DNA from: Clostridia bacterium
Lineage (GTDB): Bacteria > Bacillota > Clostridia > Oscillospirales > Oscillospiraceae
Direction: 5' to 3'
Length of the DNA: 13,619 bases
Assembly: GCA_003245395.1 (NCBI GenBank)
Contig: QKDF01000019.1
Span: forward strand, 1-13,619
Shown here piece after piece: positions 2,772 to 12,875 of the stretch. Every line of letters starts with the position of its first letter. The first letter of the stretch is position 1. Made by a program: the position numbers and the translations under genes. Below the pieces are notes generated by a model. It was given only the letters and a program-made list of their open reading frames with translations. It searched no databases and had not been told where the DNA came from.

Positions 2772-2801
2772 TTGACAGAAGAAATAAAAGTATGCTACGC
2801 T
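2772..2801 (+). promoter_or_regulatory. Probable promoter of the purine uptake and oxidation operon
   Basis: A perfect TTGACA at 2772-2777 is followed 18 bases later by TACGCT at 2796-2801. A TGC immediately precedes the -10, giving an extended -10 that would compensate for the weak hexamer. The start of transcription would be near 2808. The untranslated leader of about 215 bases would then contain the folded element and the terminator upstream of the first gene at 3025. The position fits a regulated operon; the -10 match is only moderate. Confidence 0.6.
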
Positions 2802-2832
2802 TTCAGTGAAGTTAATATTCAAGGTCTCCGTG

Positions 2833-2925
2833 ATTTGTTTTTAACAAATTGTACATCCTGTCCTCTGGTAGGGGGAGTGACACCGTGTGTCAGATCCTAC
2901 CTCGAAGCATTCGTATGTACAATTT
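2833..2925 (+). promoter_or_regulatory. Structured RNA leader, candidate orphan riboswitch aptamer
   Basis: Seen directly: a perfect 11-bp closing helix (2846-2856 with 2915-2925) encloses three further pairings. GGTAGG (2867-2872) pairs with CCTACC (2896-2901). TGACA (2878-2882) pairs with TGTCA (2888-2892) around a CCGTG loop. CGAA-GCA-TTCG forms a small hairpin at 2903-2913. The strand TGACA has a second possible partner: TGTC-CTC (2859-2865) pairs with GAG-T-GACA (2875-2882), which would turn GGTAGG/CCTACC into a loop-to-downstream pseudoknot. A 7-bp hairpin just upstream (2833-2839 with 2843-2849) shares four bases with the closing helix, so the two compete. An intrinsic terminator starts 15 bases downstream. 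Aptamer-plus-terminator order before a purine-related operon suggests a riboswitch. I cannot match it to the purine, xanthine (NMT1), ykkC-family, THF, preQ1, ZTP or Moco consensus from memory. Confidence 0.55.
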
Positions 2926-2939
2926 CATAAAAACAAAAC

Positions 2940-2990
2940 AAGGGCGTTTTGATTTTTTAAAAAATCAAGGCGTCCTTTTATTTTTTTCTA
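2940..2990 (+). terminator. Intrinsic terminator in the operon leader (attenuator)
   Basis: The arms 2940-2958 and 2959-2977 are fully complementary if three G-U pairs are allowed. The lower part is AAGGGCG/CGTCCTT and the upper part TTGATTTTTT/AAAAAATCAA. It is followed by TTATTTTTTTC and a further run of T. It sits upstream of the first gene, within the transcript expected from the promoter at 2772-2801, so it must be read through for expression. The A-rich stretch AAAAACAAAAC at 2929-2939 can pair with GTTTTGATTTTT inside the 5' arm, a possible weak competing hairpin. Confidence 0.85.
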
Positions 2991-3024: not shown

Positions 3025-4050
3025 ATGAAAGTTCATCGGGCGGTAAAGCCAGTTCTATCCATTTTTTTGGCATTGCTGATCGGCGCGGCGGTGATCCTGC
3101 TGCTTGGCGAAAATCCTGTAACTGTCTATGGCGTGATGTTTAAAGGCGCATTCGGCAGCACCAATGCGCTGGCCGGAACGCTTGTAAAAACGACTACCAT
3201 GATCTTTGTGGGTTTGAGCTACGGGTTTGCCTACAAATGCGGGTTGGTCAACATTGGCATTGAAGGTCAGCTGTACATGGGAGGCCTTTTGTGCAGCCTG
3301 ACCGCAATTTACATAGAGCTGCCGCCTATCATCCATATTCCGCTGTGCCTGCTGGCCGGCTTCGTGGGCGGAGCCGCATGGGGAGCGATTGTCGGCTTCC
3401 TGAAAACCCGGTTCCGGGCCAGCGAAATGATTACCACCGTGATGATGAACTATGTGGCGATCTTTTTTGTGAGCTATATGGTCAACGGCCCCATTAAAGC
3501 GGAAAAGGGAACGTATCCCCAGAGCGAGCCGATCCTTAAAAGTGCCGAACTCCCCACGCTGATTCCAAAAACGCAGCTGACCATCGGATTTCTTATTGCG
3601 ATTGCCGCTATCGTACTCTATGTCCTGTTCTGGAAAAAGACGGCGGTCGGCTATGAGATGGAAATGGTGGGAAGCAGTGAACAGGTGGCTCGTTACGCGG
3701 GTATCCCGGTGGATAAGATCGCAATCTGGTCCATGGCGGTTTCCGGCGGCCTCGGTGGGCTGGCGGGGTGCATGGAGGTACTGGGCGTACAGCACAAGAT
3801 CATGGAGGGCCTGTCGGCGGGCTATGGGTTTGATGGAATCGCAGTTTCCCTGCTGGGGAACAACGGCGGTATCGGAATTTTCTTATCGTCGTTTCTGTTT
3901 GGCATCATGCGGTATGGCGGTAATGCAATCCAGATGTTTACGAAACTGTCCGTCGCTGTGATCTATATCCTGCAGGCACTGATCATTCTGCTCGTTGTGG
4001 TAGACGTATTCAAACGAAGCAAGAGGAGGGAACAGCATGTCTGTCATTGA
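3025..4050 (+). CDS. ABC transporter permease, nucleoside/purine type (NupP/YufP-like)
   Basis: 341-residue integral membrane subunit of a branched-chain-permease-like ABC importer that works with BMP-family binding lipoproteins (nucleoside importers such as Bacillus NupNOPQ). Several hydrophobic segments run throughout, including about residues 10-28, 56-70, 82-98, 104-126, 138-153, 186-204, 236-254, 284-296 and 308-328. Two family hallmarks are present: GLVNIGIEGQLYMGG (about 73-87), and a loop for ATPase contact with VGSSEQVARYAGI (about 215-227). The start is set by GGGAGG shortly upstream of ATG. It is the first gene behind the leader terminator, and its end overlaps the next permease by 14 bases. 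The substrate is inferred as a purine nucleoside or base from homology type and from the downstream purine enzymes. Confidence 0.9.
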   Translation: MKVHRAVKPVLSIFLALLIGAAVILLLGENPVTVYGVMFKGAFGSTNALAGTLVKTTTMIFVGLSYGFAYKCGLVNIGIEGQLYMGGLLCSLTAIYIELPPIIHIPLCLLAGFVGGAAWGAIVGFLKTRFRASEMITTVMMNYVAIFFVSYMVNGPIKAEKGTYPQSEPILKSAELPTLIPKTQLTIGFLIAIAAIVLYVLFWKKTAVGYEMEMVGSSEQVARYAGIPVDKIAIWSMAVSGGLGGLAGCMEVLGVQHKIMEGLSAGYGFDGIAVSLLGNNGGIGIFLSSFLFGIMRYGGNAIQMFTKLSVAVIYILQALIILLVVVDVFKRSKRREQHVCH

Positions 4051-4918
4051 AAGTTTCCTATCTGTAGTATTTAATTCTTCCACGTCCATCTTGTTTGCGG
4101 CACTTGGAATTTTGCTGATGCACTTGTCCGGCGTCGTCAATATCGGGGCGGAGGGAATGATGCTCATCGGCGCATTTTCCGGCGTCGTCGGGTCCCACCT
4201 GACCAGCAATGTCTGGCTGGGCGGATTGTTTGCGATGGCGGTGACAGGAGTCGTGGGCCTTGTTTATGGGTACTGCACGATTACCTACAAAGCCAATCAG
4301 GTGGTGGTGGGTATTGCCTTCAACATTCTGGCCCAGGGCCTTACCACAACGCTTTACCGCATCGTATTCGGTATGAATTCCAGCACCATGAAGGTAGATG
4401 CCTTTTCAAAGCTCGGTGCTTTCAGTACCCCCGTGTATGTGGGACTGGGGTTTGTGATCGTCATGACGGTGTTCCTCAATAAAACCAAGCCGGGGCTGAA
4501 GGTCCGCGGAGCGGGCGAGTATCCTCAGGCAATTGACTCCATGGGTATCAGCGTCAATTTCACCCGCTATGCCAGCGTGGTGGCCGGTTCCATGATTATT
4601 GGCTTCGGCGGCGCTTATCTCTCGTTGGGGCAGCTGTCGTTCTTTACGGAAAACATGACGGATGGGCGCGGATACATTGCGTTGGCCGCCGTGATTTTCG
4701 GGCGGTACACCGCCCTGGGGACATGGCTGGCCGTGCTGGTATTCGGCGCCGGCGAGGCGCTTACCTATCGGCTCCAGGCGCTTAACAGCGGCGTCCCCAG
4801 CCAGATGATTCTGATGATCCCCTATGTGCTCTCCATCGTGGTGGTGGCGTTTTTCGGGCAGAAGGGCAGCGGCCCCGAGGCGCTGGGCATCCCGTTTTCA
4901 AAGGATGGGCGGCAGTGA
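4037..4918 (+). CDS. ABC transporter permease, second subunit (NupQ/YufQ-like)
   Basis: 293-residue partner permease. It carries the shorter family version of the hallmark, GVVNIGAEGMMLIGAF (about 32-47), and a later GYIALAAVIFGRY segment (about 212-224) typical of the second subunit in nucleoside and simple-sugar-like importers. Hydrophobic helices fill most of the chain, for example about 16-30, 40-52, 60-80, 88-102, 132-147, 180-197, 230-240 and 257-274. The start is firm: AGGAGG at about 4023-4028 precedes ATG 4037, inside the end of the first permease gene, which implies translational coupling and a heterodimeric channel. About 84 bases separate it from the lipoprotein gene; I see only a ribosome binding site there. 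Confidence 0.9.
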   Translation: MSVIESFLSVVFNSSTSILFAALGILLMHLSGVVNIGAEGMMLIGAFSGVVGSHLTSNVWLGGLFAMAVTGVVGLVYGYCTITYKANQVVVGIAFNILAQGLTTTLYRIVFGMNSSTMKVDAFSKLGAFSTPVYVGLGFVIVMTVFLNKTKPGLKVRGAGEYPQAIDSMGISVNFTRYASVVAGSMIIGFGGAYLSLGQLSFFTENMTDGRGYIALAAVIFGRYTALGTWLAVLVFGAGEALTYRLQALNSGVPSQMILMIPYVLSIVVVAFFGQKGSGPEALGIPFSKDGRQ

Positions 4919-5002: not shown

Positions 5003-6091
5003 ATGAAAAAAGATGTATTGAAAAGACTTCTGACGTTGGCGACTGCCGGGGTTATGATGCTGTCCATGGCTGCCTGCGGCAGCACGGCTGGTACAGCTTC
5101 TTCCGGAGCGTCCTCCTCCGGTACATCCTCTTCCGCCGCTTCCGCGGGATCTTCTGCGGCGACCTCCAGTGCGGCAAAGGACTATTCCTCCATTAAGGTG
5201 GCCTTGCTGCTGCCGGGTTCGGCAAACGACAAGGGCTGGAACCAGGAAGCCTATGAGGGCCTGGAAGAGATCAAGGCACTGGGCTGCCAGACCGCCTATT
5301 CCGAAAGCGTCGCACCCTCCGATTACGAGGCCGTCTTCAGAGGCTATGCCGACCAGGGCTACAACATCGTCTTCGGCCACGGCGTCGAATTCGGAGACGC
5401 CGCGACAGCGGTGGCGCCCGACTATCCCGACACAATGTTCTGCATCACCAGCTCTGATTTGAGTGTGGCACCCAACGTGTGCTCCCTCCAGAACCTGAAC
5501 AATGAGCAGGGCTTCATCGCGGGCGTTGTCGCCGCGCTGGCCTCCAAGTCCGGCAAGGTTGGCGCAATCGGCGGCATGGAGATTACTTCCATCCAGAGCT
5601 ATATCCTTGGTTTTCAGCAGGGCGTGAAGTATGTCGACAACGGCACCACCGCGCTGACCGCTTATACCGGCGACTTTGACGATGCGACGAAGGTCAAGGA
5701 GCAGGCCAACGCCTTTATCGAGCAGGGCGCGGACGTCATCGCCCAGGACGCCGACCAGGCCGGTCTGGGTTTGTTTGAGGCCGTCAAGGATGCGCCTGCA
5801 GGCGTATATGCCATCGGCTCTGTCAAGGACCAGTATGAGGAGTGCCCGGGCCGTGTTCTGACCAGTGCCCTCAATGCCATCAGTGATGCCATGGCCGTCG
5901 CGGTCAAGCAGTATGCCGAGGGCAACCTGACCGCGCAGTGCTATCGTTACGGCATCAAGGAAGGCGTGATCGGTCTGGCGGACTATCATGACTGCGCAAG
6001 CGTTCTGACTGATGAGCAGAAGGCGTTTGTCACTGATACCATGAACAAGATCGCAGCCGGCGAAATCACAATCCAGAGCGCCCAGAGCTGA
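5003..6091 (+). CDS. BMP-family (PnrA-like) nucleoside-binding lipoprotein
   Basis: 362-residue extracytoplasmic substrate receptor of the importer. The N terminus is a lipoprotein signal: basic MKKDVLKR, a hydrophobic core, then a lipobox ending in MAAC with Cys25 as the lipid-anchored residue. A Ser/Ala/Gly-rich flexible linker follows (about 26-58). The two-lobed BMP fold starts at SIKVALLLPG (about 63-72) with NDKGWNQEAYEGLEE (about 75-89), GHGVEFGDAA (about 125-134), EQGFIAGVVAAL (about 168-179), IGGMEI (about 189-194) and DVIAQDADQAG (about 244-254). AAGGAG upstream sets the start. Codons end in C or G more strongly than in the flanking genes, as expected for the most abundant component of a transporter. 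Known relatives bind purine nucleosides; the ligand here is inferred. Confidence 0.92.
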   Translation: MKKDVLKRLLTLATAGVMMLSMAACGSTAGTASSGASSSGTSSSAASAGSSAATSSAAKDYSSIKVALLLPGSANDKGWNQEAYEGLEEIKALGCQTAYSESVAPSDYEAVFRGYADQGYNIVFGHGVEFGDAATAVAPDYPDTMFCITSSDLSVAPNVCSLQNLNNEQGFIAGVVAALASKSGKVGAIGGMEITSIQSYILGFQQGVKYVDNGTTALTAYTGDFDDATKVKEQANAFIEQGADVIAQDADQAGLGLFEAVKDAPAGVYAIGSVKDQYEECPGRVLTSALNAISDAMAVAVKQYAEGNLTAQCYRYGIKEGVIGLADYHDCASVLTDEQKAFVTDTMNKIAAGEITIQSAQS

Positions 6092-6162: not shown

Positions 6163-7698
6163 ATGGCGAGTATGCTGGAACTGAAAAAGATTACCAAGCG
6201 GTATGGCGCGTTCTGCGCCAACAAAGAGATCAGCCTGTCGATTGGCGAGGGAGAGGTCTATTGTCTGCTGGGAGAAAACGGCGCGGGGAAAAGCACCCTG
6301 ATGAACGTACTCTACGGCCTGACGAGACCTGATGATGGTGACATTTTGATGGATGGGCAGAAAGTGGCGATCCGATCTCCCAAGGACGCCATTCAGCACG
6401 GAATCGTAATGGTTCATCAGCACTTCATGCTGATCCCGGCGCTGACGGTTCTGGAGAATATCGTGCTTGCCACCGAGGAACATAAGGGCGTCTTTGTGGA
6501 GAAGCAGCAGGTGTCTGCCCGTATCCGCGAAATTTCTGAAAAATACGGCTTCCGAATCGATCCGGAAGCGCGTGTGTGCGATCTTTCGGTCGGGCAGCAG
6601 CAACGGGTGGAGATCGTAAAGGCGATCTATCATCAATGCAGGCTGCTGATTCTGGATGAGCCCACCGCGGTTCTGACGCCCCGGGAGACGGAAGAACTCT
6701 ACGCCATTATTGAACAATTTAAAAAGGAACATAAGTCGGTGATTTTTATCTCCCACAAACTGCACGAGGTCATGCATATCAGTGACCGGATCAGTGTGCT
6801 GCGCAATGGAGAAAACGTCGCTACATTAAATAAAGGTGACACCAACGAAAGCGAGCTGTCCGCCTATATGGTGGGCAAGCCCGTGGATCTTGCGGTTGAA
6901 AAGGCAAATATCTGTCCCGGCGAAGTGGTTTTGAAGGTCGGGAGCCTGCAGGTGAAAAGCAAAAAGGGAAATCTGGCGGTCAAGGGCCTGTCCCTCTCCG
7001 TACGCTCCGGTGAGATTTACGGCATCGCGGGCGTGGACGGCAACGGACAGTCAGAACTGATTCAGGCGTTGACGGGACTGTCCCGGTCCGAAAGCGGAAG
7101 CGTGCAGATTTTGGCCAACGATACGACCAATACCGCACCGGGACGGGTTTTGAGTCTGGGTGTCTCCCATATTCCGGAGGACCGCCAGCATATGGGAATC
7201 GCCATGAACCAGAGCTTGATGAATAACCTGATTCTGTATGATTACCGGAATCCGGAGTATCGGAAAGGCTGTTTTCTGGACTGGGGAAAAGCGCGCAGGC
7301 ATGCGCAGCATCTGGTTGAAAAGTACCGGGTCAAGGCGCCAAGCCTGAATCAGAATATCAGCTATCTTTCCGGAGGCAACCAGCAAAAGGCGGTTGTGGC
7401 GCGAGAACTGGACAAAGGCCCGAAATTGCTGCTGGCGGTCTACCCCACCCGCGGGGTGGACATCGGGGCGGTGGAATTCATCCATAAGGAGATCGTCAAA
7501 GCCCGGGACAACGGCTGCGCGGTGCTGCTGGTATCCTCCGAGTTGGATGAGATTCTGGTGCTCAGTGATCGCATCGGAGTAATTTATGAGGGAACCATCA
7601 TCGGAGAAATGAATAGGGAGGATGCCACGGTTGAAAAGATCGGCATGTATATGGCGGGTATTGCTGATCGGACGCCGGAAGAAAAATTAGAGGCATAA
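6163..7698 (+). CDS. Nucleoside ABC transporter ATP-binding protein, duplicated ABC domains (NupO/YufO-like)
   Basis: 511-residue cytoplasmic energy subunit with two ABC modules in one chain, as in the sugar and nucleoside importer group. Module 1 is complete: Walker [10 protein letters not shown] (37-45), signature LSVGQ (141-145), Walker B LLILDEPT (161-168, Glu166 catalytic) and switch His198. Module 2 is degenerate: the P-loop reads GVDGNGQSE (290-298) without the lysine, the signature LSGGN (402-406) is kept, Walker B reads [10 protein letters not shown] without the catalytic Glu, and the switch is SSEL. This asymmetry is normal for the family and leaves one hydrolytic site per dimer. 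GAGGG lies 6 bases before ATG 6163. With the two permeases and the lipoprotein this completes an importer. The stop at 7698 is 7 bases from the next start. Confidence 0.93.
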
Positions 7699-7705
7699 AA
7701 GGAAT

Positions 7706-9106
7706 ATGACGGATTTATTGCTGACCAATGCGGTGATCGTGACGGTCGATCCGCAGCGCCGGATTTTGTTTGACGGCGCCATGGCTGTGTGCGGAGACAG
7801 AATCCAGGCAATCGGGGAAAGCCCAGAGCTGCTCAGCCGATTTCCCGACGCGAAGCGGACGATTAACTGTGCGGGGAAAATTGTTTTTCCCGGCTTTATC
7901 AACACCCATAACCATTTGTTCCAGACGCTGCTCAAGGGCTTGGGAGACGACATGGTGCTTAAGGACTGGCTGAAAACTATGACGTTCCCCGCCGCCCGGT
8001 TCCTGGAGCCGGAGGACTGCTGGGGCGGAGCGATGCTGGGTATTCTGGAGGGCATCCACAGCGGTATGACCACCGAGGTGGATTATATGTATCCCCATGC
8101 GCGGGAGGGCCTGAGCGACGGGGTACTCAAGGCGTACCGGGATACGAAAATTCGCGGCGTCTTTGGCCGGGGCTGTATGGATACCGGAACGGATTTTGGT
8201 GTCGTACCCGAGATTATGCAGGACCGAAAGACGGTGGAAAAAGACCTGACACGAATCTTCGATACCTATCACAACACGGAAAACGGGCGGATTCAGGTCT
8301 GGACGGCGCCCGCTGCGCTGTGGTCGAATACAGAGCCGATGCTCCGGATGCTCTACGAGATCAGCAATTCCTATCACGCGGGACTGACGGTTCACGTCTC
8401 GGAGACGCCGTTTGACCGCACAGCCACGCAGGCGCTTCATGGCAGCTGCGGTGTGGACTGTCTGGAAAAGATCGGACTTACCGGGCCCAACGTGCTGATG
8501 GTGCACTGCGTTTACCTGACGGTAAACGACATCCGGAAAGCGGGGGAGTACGATCTGAAGGTCTCCCACAACCCGGTGAGCAATATGTATCTGGCGTCGG
8601 GCGTGGCTCCGGTGGGGCAGATGCTGCAGAACAACATCACCGTCGGTCTGGGCGTGGACGGTGCGGCCAGCAACAACGGTCAGGATATGCTGGAGCTGAT
8701 GAAAACAACGTCTCTGCTGCAGAAGGTACATACACTCAATCCCACCGCGATTTCTGCGGAAAAAGTGCTGGAGATGGCAACCATCGACGGCGCTCGGGCC
8801 ATCGGTATGGAGCACGAGATTGGTTCTCTGGAGGCCGGGAAAAAGGCGGATTTTGTGATCTTCAATCCGTATCGCTCCGCCAAGGCGGTTCCGGTTCACA
8901 ACCCGGTGTCCACACTGGTGTATTCCTCCACGATGCAGAACATCGAAAGCGTTGCGGTGGACGGTACGTTCCTGATGGAAAACGGCGTGGTTACGGTGGT
9001 GCCCGACGAGGAGGCCGTTTTGCGGCAGTGGCAGAAGATTGCCGAGCGGTTGGCTCAGCGCGCGGGAATCTGCAACAGGGGGGCCGGTCATCCCTGGAGG
9101 AGGTAA
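7706..9106 (+). CDS. ATZ/TRZ-type amidohydrolase, probable purine deaminase (guanine or 8-oxoguanine type)
   Basis: 466-residue cytosolic metal-dependent hydrolase of the cytosine-deaminase-like amidohydrolase superfamily. Metal and catalytic residues are all visible: THNH (His68, His70) after FPGF, VHVSET (His230, with Glu233 as likely proton shuttle), MVHC (His267) and GLGVDGAASNNG (Asp318). The C-terminal composite sheet contains SLEAGKKADFVIFNP. Related enzymes deaminate guanine, 8-oxoguanine, S-adenosylhomocysteine or hydrolyse aminotriazines. Position between a purine-type importer and a xanthine-dehydrogenase-type enzyme favours guanine to xanthine or 8-oxoguanine to urate (inference). 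The ribosome binding site is weak and close (AAAAGGA two bases from ATG), suggesting dependence on translation from the ATPase gene 7 bases upstream. Exact substrate uncertain. Confidence 0.85.
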   Translation: MTDLLLTNAVIVTVDPQRRILFDGAMAVCGDRIQAIGESPELLSRFPDAKRTINCAGKIVFPGFINTHNHLFQTLLKGLGDDMVLKDWLKTMTFPAARFLEPEDCWGGAMLGILEGIHSGMTTEVDYMYPHAREGLSDGVLKAYRDTKIRGVFGRGCMDTGTDFGVVPEIMQDRKTVEKDLTRIFDTYHNTENGRIQVWTAPAALWSNTEPMLRMLYEISNSYHAGLTVHVSETPFDRTATQALHGSCGVDCLEKIGLTGPNVLMVHCVYLTVNDIRKAGEYDLKVSHNPVSNMYLASGVAPVGQMLQNNITVGLGVDGAASNNGQDMLELMKTTSLLQKVHTLNPTAISAEKVLEMATIDGARAIGMEHEIGSLEAGKKADFVIFNPYRSAKAVPVHNPVSTLVYSSTMQNIESVAVDGTFLMENGVVTVVPDEEAVLRQWQKIAERLAQRAGICNRGAGHPWRR

Positions 9107-9111
9107 AAGAC

Positions 9112-9117
9112 AGGAGG
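9112..9117 (+). promoter_or_regulatory. Ribosome binding site that fixes a GTG start for the Mo subunit
   Basis: AGGAGG here lies 8 bases before GTG at 9126, ideal spacing. The alternative longer frame from ATG 9039 would begin inside the amidohydrolase gene, add 29 residues of non-conserved sequence and has no comparable site upstream. A second AGGAGG at 9098-9103 adds to ribosome recruitment. Confidence 0.75.
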
Positions 9118-9125
9118 TGTTGGCG

Positions 9126-11444
9126 GTGCAGGAAAACTATCAGGTGATCGGCCGTTCCCATGTCCGAGTGGATGCCGGAGAAAAAGTAACGGGGCGGGCC
9201 GTTTACGCCGACGATCTGGAGATGCCCCGCATGGTTCATGCGGGGAGCGTCCACACGACCCATCCACATGCCGCGGTGTCCGTGGATGCGGCGGCGGCGC
9301 TGACCGTGCCGGGGGTCGTCTGTGTTCTGACTGCCAAAGATTTTCCAAAACCGCAGAGCCATTCTGACTTTTGCTACTGCACAGACACTCCGAAGTTTAT
9401 CGGTGACGTGGTTGCCGTCGTAGCCGCAAAAAACCCGGAGAGCCTGCAGGAGGGAATCCGGGCTGTCAAGGTAACGTATCGGGATCTGCCGGGAGTCTAC
9501 ACCATCGAGGAGGCTCTGAAAGAAAATGCTCCGGTTATCCGCGAGAAAGGCGTGGGTCTGACAGACGGCCTTCCCGATCCTGCAAAACCCGGTAATGTTT
9601 TTCTCCAGTCTCATAAGCCCCTGCGAAAGGGGGATGTGGAGACCGGCTTTGCGCAGGCGGACGTTATCTATGAGCAGACCTTTGAGACTCCGTTTGTGGA
9701 GCACGCCTATATCGAGCCGGAGTCGGTTCTGGTATACACCGAAGCGGAGACGGGCACCGTCGTGGTTCGATCCTGCTCCCAGCAGGGGCACGCACCACGG
9801 GAGTTCGTGGCGGACGCCCTGGGCATCCCCATGAACCGGGTGCGGGCGGTGCAGTGCACAGTGGGCGGCTCCTTCGGCGGAAAATTTGAACTGGTGGGCA
9901 TTTTAAGCGGCCGCGCGGCAGTGGTCAGCCGGAAAACGGGCCGGCCCTGCAAAATAACGCTTAGCCGGGAGGATTCCATTCTGGAGAGCGCCAAGCGCCA
10001 CCCGTTCCGTACAACAATCCGGGTGGGAGCAAAGCGGGACGGAACCATCACCGCCTATCAGGCGCGGCAGGTGGAAAACTGCGGTGCGTACAACAGCCAG
10101 GCGCCCTGGATGAACATCCGCGCCATGGTGCACTCCGCCGGGCCGTACCGGATTCCCAACATCCGGACGGACACCTATGGCGTCTTTACCAACAACCTCA
10201 CGCCCTGTGCCTTTCGGGGGTACAGTTCCCCCCAGGTGATCTTTGGCAACGAGATGATGATGGACGAGTTGGCCGAGCGGCTGGGAATCAGCATCGTGGA
10301 CTTAAAACGGAAAAATTTGCTCCGGCAAGGGGACCGGACCGCCACCGGGCAGGAGCTGATCCATGAGACGCTTCTGCCTTTTATGATGGAGGACATCGTC
10401 CGGGATACGGACTACCTGCGCAAGGAACAGGCGTATCGGCATCAGGACGGAGTTTGGAAAAAAGGCATCGGCCTGGTGACCAGCTATCGCGGCTCCGCCT
10501 TGGGCGGGGAGAGCGTGGATTCCTCCGGCGCTATGCTGACGGCGTTGCAGGACGGGAGTTTTATCCTCAATGCGGCCCTGATGGAGATCGGGCAGGGTTT
10601 GCGCACCGTTTATACGGAAATTGCGGCGGAAGCCTCAGGCATCGCCATGAAAGATATCGCGGTCACGCAGGTGGACTCCCACGCCATTCCCGACAGCGGA
10701 CTGACCGTCGCCTCCCGGGGGACAGCACAAGGAGGGCAGTCCGTGCGGATGGCCGGGGAAAAAATGAAGGAGATGCTGATCGAGTCCGGTCGTATTCTTC
10801 TGGGTGCAAAACCGGAAGAACACGTACAGATCGTCGCCAGCCGGTGCTTCATCGAAGAGCGCCCGGAGCGGATGATCTCTGTGGCGGACATCTGCCTGTA
10901 CCGCAAGTACCAGGGGCTGCCCATGGCGGCATACCAGTGGTATATTCCCCGTCCGTTGATCAACGATGAGGCCACCGGTCAGGGCGAGGCGTTCACGACC
11001 TACGCCTACGGCGTCAGTGTAGCGGAGGTGGCGGTAAACTGCCACACCGGTCAGGTGCGGGTGGAAAAAATCACCGCGTACCACGACGTGGGTAAGGTGC
11101 TGGACGAGCGGCTGGTGAAAGGGCAGATTTACGGCGGTATTCTGATGGGCATGGGCTTTGGCCTGTGGGAAAATGTACAGGTCCGGCAGGGGAAGACGAA
11201 GGATCTCAATTTTGACAGATACCACATTCCCACGTCCCAGGATCTGCCGGACATTCAAATCAAACTTTACGAATGCGACGACCCGGAGGGAACGTATGGT
11301 GCGAAATGCATCGCCGAGGCGGCCACGGAAATGATCGGGACAGTCCTGGCTTTGGCGGTCAAGCACGCCATTGGAAAACCGATCCGCTCCCTGCCGGTGA
11401 GCATGGAGGCTGTTGTCAATTTGCTGGGCGAAGACTGCCCATGA
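9126..11444 (+). CDS. xdhA: Xanthine dehydrogenase family, molybdenum-binding catalytic subunit
   Basis: 772-residue large subunit that binds the molybdopterin cofactor and hydroxylates the substrate ring with water. The GTG start was chosen from the AGGAGG at 9112; numbering is from it. The N-terminal a/b hammerhead domain includes VTGRAVYADD (about 21-30). The Mo-binding region contains EHAYIEPES (192-200), GGSFGGKFE (247-255), RHPF (291-294), AFRGY (362-366), EIGQG (487-491) and, near the C terminus, GAKCIAEAA (725-733), whose Glu731 matches the catalytic base Glu1261 of bovine xanthine oxidase. By hand alignment Arg332 (IRAMVH) matches bovine Arg880 and Arg364 matches Arg912, both substrate-side residues; bovine Glu802 aligns with Phe254. 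The FeS and FAD subunits follow, making a three-gene enzyme. Xanthine or hypoxanthine is the likely substrate, but other N-heterocycles remain possible. Confidence 0.9.
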   Translation: MQENYQVIGRSHVRVDAGEKVTGRAVYADDLEMPRMVHAGSVHTTHPHAAVSVDAAAALTVPGVVCVLTAKDFPKPQSHSDFCYCTDTPKFIGDVVAVVAAKNPESLQEGIRAVKVTYRDLPGVYTIEEALKENAPVIREKGVGLTDGLPDPAKPGNVFLQSHKPLRKGDVETGFAQADVIYEQTFETPFVEHAYIEPESVLVYTEAETGTVVVRSCSQQGHAPREFVADALGIPMNRVRAVQCTVGGSFGGKFELVGILSGRAAVVSRKTGRPCKITLSREDSILESAKRHPFRTTIRVGAKRDGTITAYQARQVENCGAYNSQAPWMNIRAMVHSAGPYRIPNIRTDTYGVFTNNLTPCAFRGYSSPQVIFGNEMMMDELAERLGISIVDLKRKNLLRQGDRTATGQELIHETLLPFMMEDIVRDTDYLRKEQAYRHQDGVWKKGIGLVTSYRGSALGGESVDSSGAMLTALQDGSFILNAALMEIGQGLRTVYTEIAAEASGIAMKDIAVTQVDSHAIPDSGLTVASRGTAQGGQSVRMAGEKMKEMLIESGRILLGAKPEEHVQIVASRCFIEERPERMISVADICLYRKYQGLPMAAYQWYIPRPLINDEATGQGEAFTTYAYGVSVAEVAVNCHTGQVRVEKITAYHDVGKVLDERLVKGQIYGGILMGMGFGLWENVQVRQGKTKDLNFDRYHIPTSQDLPDIQIKLYECDDPEGTYGAKCIAEAATEMIGTVLALAVKHAIGKPIRSLPVSMEAVVNLLGEDCP

Positions 11445-11454
11445 GGAGGAGCAT

Positions 11455-11928
11455 ATGCAGGAGAAAACGGTTCGGTTTTATGTAAACTCTGTGGAAACAG
11501 AGGTCACGGTTTCGGTGAACGACCGCTTACTGGACGTGCTGCGAAATCAACTGGGACTAACCGGAACCAAGGAGGGCTGCGGCATCGGTGAGTGTGGCGC
11601 CTGCACCGTGATACTGGACGGGAAAGCGGTAAATTCCTGCCTGGTACCGGCTGCATCGCTGGATGGCCATGAAGTGGTAACGATTGAGGGATTGTCGGAG
11701 GGCGGAACCCTCCACCCACTGCAGGATGCCTTTGCCCGGCACGGCGCTGTTCAGTGCGGGTTTTGCACGCCGGGATTCATTATGAGCGCCAAGGCGCTGC
11801 TGGACGAAAATTCCCATCCCGAGCGGACGGAAATTCAGGAGGCTATCGCCGGAAATCTATGCCGCTGCACGGGTTATGAGCAGATTATCGATGCGATTGA
11901 GGACGCTGCGGGAAAGGCCGAGCCATGA
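11455..11928 (+). CDS. xdhC: Xanthine dehydrogenase family, [2Fe-2S] subunit
   Basis: 157-residue electron-transfer subunit with two [2Fe-2S] clusters that carry electrons from the molybdenum site to FAD. The plant-ferredoxin-like N domain has C42-x4-C47-x2-C50 and C62 (GCGIGECGACTV ... NSC). The helical C domain has C101-x2-C104 (QCGFCTPGF) and C136-x-C138 (CRCTGYEQI). All eight ligands are present and the length is normal for the family. The start at 11455 is chosen because GGAGGA at 11445-11450 is correctly spaced. An ATG at 11413 in the same frame would lie within the Mo subunit gene and add 14 unrelated residues. The stop overlaps the start of the FAD subunit (ATGA), so the two are translationally coupled. 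Confidence 0.95.
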   Translation: MQEKTVRFYVNSVETEVTVSVNDRLLDVLRNQLGLTGTKEGCGIGECGACTVILDGKAVNSCLVPAASLDGHEVVTIEGLSEGGTLHPLQDAFARHGAVQCGFCTPGFIMSAKALLDENSHPERTEIQEAIAGNLCRCTGYEQIIDAIEDAAGKAEP

Positions 11929-12875
11929 TACAGGTGGGAGATTACTGCCGCCCGGCTTCTGTGGCGGAGGCGGTAACACTGTGCGCGCGGGAGGGGGCCG
12001 TCTCGTTTGCCGGAGGGACGGACCTGATGGTCAAGGCGAGAGGGCGTTCTCAATTCCGGGACAAGACCTTTGTGGACTTGGGCGGCATGTCCGAGCTGTC
12101 TTTCATCCGGGACGAGGGAGAGACAATTTCCATCGGTGCCGCCGTCACGCTGACGCAGCTGCTCCAAACCGCTGCAATCAAAGAATCCGTACCGCTGCTG
12201 TGGCAGGCCGCCTCCCGTGTGGCCAACCGTCAGGTTCGCAACCGTGCCACGCTTGCGGGAAATATTGCGAATGCCTGCCCCGCGTCGGATTGCATTCCTG
12301 CGCTGATGGTGCTTGGCGCTTCCGTCACCGTGACGGGAACGGAGGGGGAGCGGACGATTCCCGTGGCGGAGCTGTTTCGCAGCTGTGAAGCCTGCCTGCG
12401 CCACGATGGGATGCAGGTTCGCACCTGCTTCTTTTTGGAAACGGTAACAAAGAAATTGACGCTCCGGCAGGGAGAATTGATCACCTCTTTGGAAATATCC
12501 AAACAGAGCGCCGAACAGCGGTCTGTGTTCTATAAGCTCACGGAGAACCGGTCATCGGGCATGGCGGTGCTGAACTTCGCCATGACGGGCTCTTTGGGTG
12601 CGGATGGAACGGTGACGGCATTCAGCGTCTGCCCGGGAGGCGTTTTTCCCAAGCCCCGCTGCTTCCCGGAGAGGGAGAACCCGCTGCTGGGCAGGCTGCC
12701 CGACCGGGCGCTGTTCCAGAGCATAGTACAGGAAATTTCTGACAGTCTTGCGGCGGAAAAAGACACGCTGGCGGGATATGCCTATAAAAGCCGTGTCCTG
12801 CCGGAAATCTTACAGGATGGGATGGCGCAGCTTTTCCTGGGAATCCCCATGGAAGGATCGGAGTGGAGCATATGA
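11925..12875 (+). CDS. xdhB: Xanthine dehydrogenase family, FAD-binding subunit with a Cys-containing insert
   Basis: 316-residue flavoprotein subunit of the molybdenum hydroxylase that passes electrons to the final acceptor. FAD contacts are recognisable: FAGGTDLMVK (28-37), IGAAVTLTQL (70-79), RNRATLAGNIANACPASD (105-122), and the CO-dehydrogenase-flavoprotein-like C domain from about 195 on. Where the family usually has a short GPGKT-type loop after FRS, this protein carries about 16-20 extra residues containing C154-x2-C157-x10-C168. Inserts in this subunit hold a [4Fe-4S] cluster in 4-hydroxybenzoyl-CoA reductase; whether that holds here is not known. The ATG overlaps the stop of the FeS subunit by the ATGA arrangement, and its own stop overlaps the next gene in the same way. 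Confidence 0.92.
   Translation: MIQVGDYCRPASVAEAVTLCAREGAVSFAGGTDLMVKARGRSQFRDKTFVDLGGMSELSFIRDEGETISIGAAVTLTQLLQTAAIKESVPLLWQAASRVANRQVRNRATLAGNIANACPASDCIPALMVLGASVTVTGTEGERTIPVAELFRSCEACLRHDGMQVRTCFFLETVTKKLTLRQGELITSLEISKQSAEQRSVFYKLTENRSSGMAVLNFAMTGSLGADGTVTAFSVCPGGVFPKPRCFPERENPLLGRLPDRALFQSIVQEISDSLAAEKDTLAGYAYKSRVLPEILQDGMAQLFLGIPMEGSEWSI

Follow-up and report, generated by a model that had tools for sequence, protein, structure and literature searches.

The question raised by this locus is whether the structured leader of a likely purine-breakdown operon acts as the aptamer of an orphan riboswitch, as the original prediction proposed for positions 2833-2990. The window, by which we mean the whole stretch analysed, is a complete contig of 13,619 bases from an incomplete genome (72% complete). 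Its tetranucleotide usage correlates with that of its own genome at r = 0.84-0.92 for five of six stretches and at 0.72 for the sixth, as against 0.78, 0.50 and 0.37 for the related operons, which speaks for, without proving, a correct binning of the contig.

The operon and its relatives

A purine-type operon had been predicted downstream of the leader, and family profiles agree with this in identifying a putative importer, amidohydrolases and subunits of the xanthine-dehydrogenase type (Table 1). These assignments hold at family level, with Pfam thresholds passed and NCBIfam curated cut-offs not reached, and they make a function in purine breakdown likely. The first permease, used as a query against genomes, returned three related loci (L035, L036 and L037, from genomes G485, G486 and G487), whose permeases are 74% (record titled Mediterraneibacter), 71% (titled Eubacterium) and 70% (titled Lachnospiraceae bacterium) identical to that of the window. 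All three were taken as Lachnospiraceae because the family draws of their genomes begin with the same genomes. A further genome of the window's class but of another order (G337) is apparently one and the same as the Lachnospiraceae member G808, the match lying at the same place, and two orders are therefore concerned.

The operon order is kept in L035, of which a longer stretch (L062) was available, through to the second amidohydrolase. Beyond it lie genes for a dihydroorotate-dehydrogenase/PreA-like protein and for a YgeY-family hydrolase, whose score of 492.7 bits exceeds the cut-off of 321 bits. There follow two further XdhA-like proteins, a protein weakly resembling WrbA and a further 2Fe-2S subunit. 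YgeY, SsnA and Xdh mark purine and urate gene clusters. Just upstream of the L035 operon are the last part of a 23S rRNA gene and a gene for tRNA-Asn (L062 1-330).

Table 1. Features of the leader and the operon in the window
Feature	Position	Strand	Basis
Perfect -35 hexamer TTGACA, likely promoter	2772-2777	+	By eye
Weak -10 TACGCT, spacing 18	2796-2801	+	By eye
Possible antiterminator strand, would pair with terminator 5' arm 2942-2952	2819-2829	+	Proposal from partial-transcript folds
Invariant 5' block AAGGTCTCCGTG	2821-2832	+	Identical in 3/3 leaders
Hairpin P2 (2833-2839 with 2843-2849)	2833-2849	+	Paired in 3/3; both-side change in 2 pairs
P1 5' strand GTACAT, partner 2915-2920	2851-2856	+	Paired in 3/3; 5/6 pairs invariant, one GC/GU
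Internal-loop strand CCTGTCC, conserved	2857-2863	+	Identical in 3/3
P3 5' strand GGTAGG, partner 2896-2901	2867-2872	+	Both-side change in 4/5 modelled pairs
Internal-loop strand GGGAG, conserved	2873-2877	+	Identical in 3/3
Hairpin P4 TGACAC-CGT-GTGTCA	2878-2892	+	Paired in 3/3; both-side change in 1 pair
P3 3' strand CCTACC	2896-2901	+	Pairs in the three-leader alignment
Linker holding CGAA-GCA-TTCG hairpin	2902-2914	+	Sequence differs in L035/L036
P1 3' strand ATGTAC, 3' end of element	2915-2920	+	Three-leader alignment
Intrinsic terminator: stem (2940-2977) and U-rich tract	2940-2987	+	Terminator prediction
ABC importer, two permeases	3025-4050, 4037-4918	+	Family profiles
Bmp/PnrA-type binding protein	5003-6091	+	Family profiles
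ABC importer ATPase	6163-7698	+	Family profiles
Amidohydrolase	7706-9106	+	Family profiles
XdhA-like Mo subunit	9039-11444	+	Family profiles
2Fe-2S subunit	11455-11928	+	Family profiles
FAD subunit	11925-12875	+	Family profiles
Second amidohydrolase, truncated by contig end	12863-13618	+	Family profiles

Conservation and covariation of the leader element

The same leader precedes the same operon in L035 and L036, two Lachnospiraceae MAGs, which together with the window make up the three known members of the element. Their alignment (A2), restricted to these three leaders, two of which (L035 and L036) come from one family, fixes the boundaries of the conserved element at 2821-2920, so that it starts 12 bases upstream of the interval originally reported. 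The element consists of the invariant 5' block and the hairpin P2, which stands beside a rod of P1, P3 and P4 with the internal loops CCTGTCC and GGGAG. The compact structured domain foreseen for this leader is thus conserved in both relatives, but its boundaries need correction, as the module begins at 2821.

All 24 pairs of the named structure (P2 with 7 bp, P1 with 6, P3 with 5 and P4 with 6) form in each of the three leaders (72/72 cells), and seven of them are changed on both sides (two in P2, four in P3, one in P4), a number that none of 500 shuffles reached (shuffled mean 2.3). When the partners are slid by 1-3 columns only 29-47% of the cells remain paired, a control that favours the named structure since this was drawn from the same three sequences. 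Further pair types, used as a control measure, are unremarkable (reached by 177/500 shuffles), and across the three leaders both-side changes are few in P2 and P4 and none occur in P1. RNAalifold recovers the same helices without a given structure, with both-side changes in 8/35 pairs, and lengthens the rod by pairs that are often broken in L036 or the window; single-sequence folds likewise give the same helices in each leader. At the level of primary sequence, the leaders share 79/91, 79/94 and 86/97 aligned bases over the element (84-89%), whereas the gene start is less conserved (72-74%). For the 100 bases upstream of the element the alignment does not surpass that of shuffles (z -1.3, 0.4 and 1.3), while z reaches 8.8, 3.5 and 6.5 for the stretch extending down to the start codon. 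In our judgement it is highly probable from this comparison that 2821-2920 represents a conserved structured leader RNA. The original prediction had asked for conservation and covariation in homologous leaders, and both were found in the two others.

We hold the structure to be real because it is conserved with compensatory change, and not because of its folding energy. For the reported interval 2833-2990 the folding energy is -57.8 kcal/mol, whereas 200 shuffles average -28.0 (sd 3.7, z = -8.1) and none of them does as well. Much of this low energy, however, belongs to the terminator and to a long A-T stem. Folding energy was rejected as proof of the element, which taken alone is ordinary in two of the three sequences (z = -1.65 in the window and -0.51 in L036, where 13/200 and 58/200 shuffles, respectively, do as well; z = -5.46 in L035). 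The 10-bp A-T stem (2834-2843/2929-2938), which is peculiar to the window and in the minimum-energy fold competes with P2, was also rejected as a conserved structure, as it is absent from the folds of L035 and L036 and as P2 covaries.

The comparison also revises the helices that had been named from the window alone. The GGTAGG/CCTACC helix (2867-2872/2896-2901) and the TGACA/TGTCA hairpin are present and correspond to the covarying P3 and to P4, respectively. The perfect 11-bp closing helix, AAATTGTACAT (2846-2856) with ATGTACAATTT (2915-2925), can be read in the sequence, but only six of its pairs (2851-2856/2915-2920) are common to the relatives, and 2846-2849 belongs to P2 instead. The CGAA-GCA-TTCG hairpin (2903-2913) exists in the window and is absent from L035 and L036.

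Terminator, possible switching and interpretation

The hexamer TTGACA lies 43 bases upstream of the element in the window, 50 in L035 and 48 in L036, although an automated scan reported no plus-strand promoter at its site in the window. An intrinsic terminator had been placed 15 bases after position 2925 and ahead of the first gene, and it was found there. Such a terminator follows the structured RNA in all three leaders (at 19 bases in the window, 21 in L035 and 11 in L036) and qualifies by its position as an expression platform. A U run directly 3' of P1 was observed in L035 (701-712) and L036 (4906-4910) and is absent in the window; in these two relatives the rod itself might already terminate transcription before the second terminator.

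When the leaders are folded only up to the 5' arm of the terminator, this arm pairs with the 5' block (UYAAGGUCUCC) in all three, a pairing that would close P2 and P1 into a junction in each of the partial folds, and by eye the 3' arm resembles the 5' block, as competing strands should. The expected numbers of pairs (10.3, 11.6 and 8.1) are matched by 18%, 10.5% and 17% of dinucleotide-shuffled arms; with mononucleotide shuffling the figures are 19%, 2% and 9.5%. The duplex energies are ordinary. Arms taken from leaders that lack the element give 7.3-10.0 expected pairs with the 5' block, which in L036 is more than its own arm gives. The pairing is no better than that of shuffles, and the antiterminator therefore stays a proposal. 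Alternatively, CUCC (2826-2829) could pair with GGAG (2874-2877) as a pseudoknot, which would engage the same block with opposite polarity.

Represented by three members, the element shows one general mark of riboswitches, a structured RNA that is conserved ahead of an operon of metabolic genes. The reading we prefer, with a probability of roughly 0.55, is a rare orphan riboswitch for a small molecule, with 2821-2920 as its aptamer domain and 2940-2987 as its terminator platform. The aptamer would bind a small molecule handled by the operon, such as a purine base or an oxidised purine, probably at the CCUGUCC and GGGAG internal loops. Binding would then decide whether the 5' block holds the 5' arm of the terminator, acting as an antiterminator that switches the operon on, or frees it. 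The catabolic nature of the operon suggests an ON switch with induction by the substrate, although this polarity is a guess. More tentatively, we consider it possible, if somewhat short of probable, that the element represents a new class from Lachnospiraceae and a neighbouring order, which senses a compound of purine breakdown (xanthine, urate or a related base), turns on uptake and oxidation by antitermination, and has an aptamer whose fold is not related to those of the known classes for purines and xanthine. The original interpretation thereby keeps its conserved leader, its terminator and its purine-type operon; two of its named helices and the domain boundaries need correction, and there are relatives that carry operon and terminator without the element.

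If confirmed, such a switch would be a further RNA sensor of the purine type, distinct in its fold, and its ligand, if found, would reveal the substrates of the Bmp-type importer and of the molybdenum hydroxylase. Purine and urate breakdown by gut lineages is of medical interest, and the hosts of the element are related to common gut lineages.

Alternative explanations and distribution

The leader of L037 (before 1919) lacks the element but keeps a promoter-like site and a terminator of similar kind, and the same holds for two operon copies in genome G278 (L096 and L097), whose permeases are close relatives about 16 kb apart. In these three leaders the promoter-like site and the terminator hairpin stand in direct succession, with nothing aptamer-like between them. 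The terminator is therefore not tied to the element everywhere, and another factor may act there, which lends some weight to the view that a regulatory protein (an antiterminator or attenuator protein) binds to the element, which then would not be an aptamer for a small molecule. Small hairpins with conserved loops would suit proteins as well. No regulator gene was recognised among the scanned proteins of the window and of L062, which represent part of the ORFs, however, and the conserved bases are spread over the 5' block and two internal loops in a manner that we judge to be more aptamer-like, so that we regard a protein site as unlikely, though as the strongest of the alternatives.

The aptamer reading also has to be weighed against the distribution of the element, which is rare. 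A model of the element (R1) detected it in 1/63 genomes of the genus of the window's genome, 1/6 of the genus of G486, 1/58 of the genus of G485 and 1/397 of the family of G486, in each case the genome itself, as well as in 1/140 of the order of G485 (G485) and 0/375 of the family of G487 (at least partly the genomes scanned for the family of G486); divergent members could escape the stricter filters of the scans in the window's genus, in the genus and order of G485 and in the two families, and in the family scans at most ten candidates a genome were scored among the matches listed. With filters off, the best matches at 30 permease loci (E 0.12 in L084, 0.27 in L070 and 0.91 in L066, at its leader terminator) were taken as chance. 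The near-palindromic rod gives rise to weak minus-strand matches of the model at the same sites (E 0.004 in the genus of G485, E 0.002 in the window's genus). Pattern scans were positive in two of the three genomes of L035-L037 and in 4/391 genomes of a class sample, namely the window and three copies of a coding stretch. With up to three mismatches, the pattern matched in 14/397 genomes of the family of G485, the rest of the motif being found only at the exact match of G485, and a reversed control pattern matched about as often (24 genomes). A sole pattern match in IMG/VR was rejected, as the viral contig has an ORF of 631 aa at this place; a permease search of IMG/VR gave no match, and the leader had none in plasmids and phages, where all plasmid permeases were below 60% identity. 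The matches listed for the permease include 34 clusters at 60-93% identity. Within the window's genome the element is present as a single copy and is thus not a repeat.

This patchy distribution, together with a first permease that is 70-74% identical to Lachnospiraceae and at most 46% to its own genus among the matches listed, indicates that the operon has apparently been exchanged across orders. The leader might hence be conserved only through a fairly recent exchange between lineages, its hairpins having no switching role. We consider this improbable, as the element is better kept than the gene start, the DNA upstream has diverged, and the base changes within the element are compensatory.

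Slightly less probable still is that the element belongs, as a highly divergent member, to one of the known riboswitch classes. The genes downstream resemble those associated with xanthine-I and xanthine-II. Xanthine-I (NMT1 motif) is a leader RNA that precedes genes for the oxidation and transport of purines and binds xanthine and uric acid; it is reported only from alpha-, beta- and gamma-Proteobacteria, adopts a two-stem P1/P2a/P2b fold and turns off translation (PMC7373994). Xanthine-II, a three-stem junction of the guanine family, precedes genes for xanthine dehydrogenase and other enzymes of purine breakdown (PMC9295807), and PRPP and related ykkC subtype 2 riboswitches precede purine biosynthesis genes (PMC7266159). 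The element shares with xanthine-I, so described, the position before purine-type genes, but differs in layout and has a terminator; it lacks the three-stem junction and the purine core of the guanine family with its purine ligands, and it precedes breakdown genes, unlike the likewise purine-linked ykkC leaders.

Rfam accords with these differences. The leader had originally been fitted to neither the purine consensus nor another class, and a scan had been named as the possible refutation; Rfam 15 (E up to 5 for the window and up to 10 for the leaders) gave no family at threshold, and no significant match to a known class, in the window, L035 or L036, three independent members of which short stretches, too, were searched at an E limit of 10. 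The weak matches name no family that is common to all three. Two families come up in two members each, both below threshold: RsmV on the minus strand with 10.4 and 8.1 bits (threshold 100), and Spy1186876 with 10.5 and 18.1 bits (threshold 208). A xanthine-I core had no match in the three leaders, assuming the NMT1 model to be among the 4227 models, and of the three-stem junction with binding joining regions (guanine/adenine, xanthine-II) the folds give no sign, consisting of P2 and the rod; in the models a junction would arise only if the 5' block pairs with the terminator. Among the open PMC papers listed for urate or uric acid, xanthine and purine-breakdown riboswitches and for the ssnA motif, no description of the element was found. 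A human-microbiome study that reportedly contains thousands of candidate RNAs (PMC8040213) could include it.

Attenuation by a four-codon leader ORF (GTG-N3-N3-N3-TAA, 2830-2844), the translation of which would open P2, is very improbable. An AAGG and a GTG with three codons and TAA do recur at matching positions in each leader, but L035 and L036 hardly differ in this stretch, their codons yield no peptide consistent with the window, and TAA arises easily in A/T-rich hairpins. In the window the stretch after AAGG reads GTG ATT TGT TTT TAA. Weak chance matches to Rfam also drew our attention to a long near-perfect hairpin at 1938-1995, which follows a chemoreceptor-like ORF (1-1932) and is likely to be its terminator.
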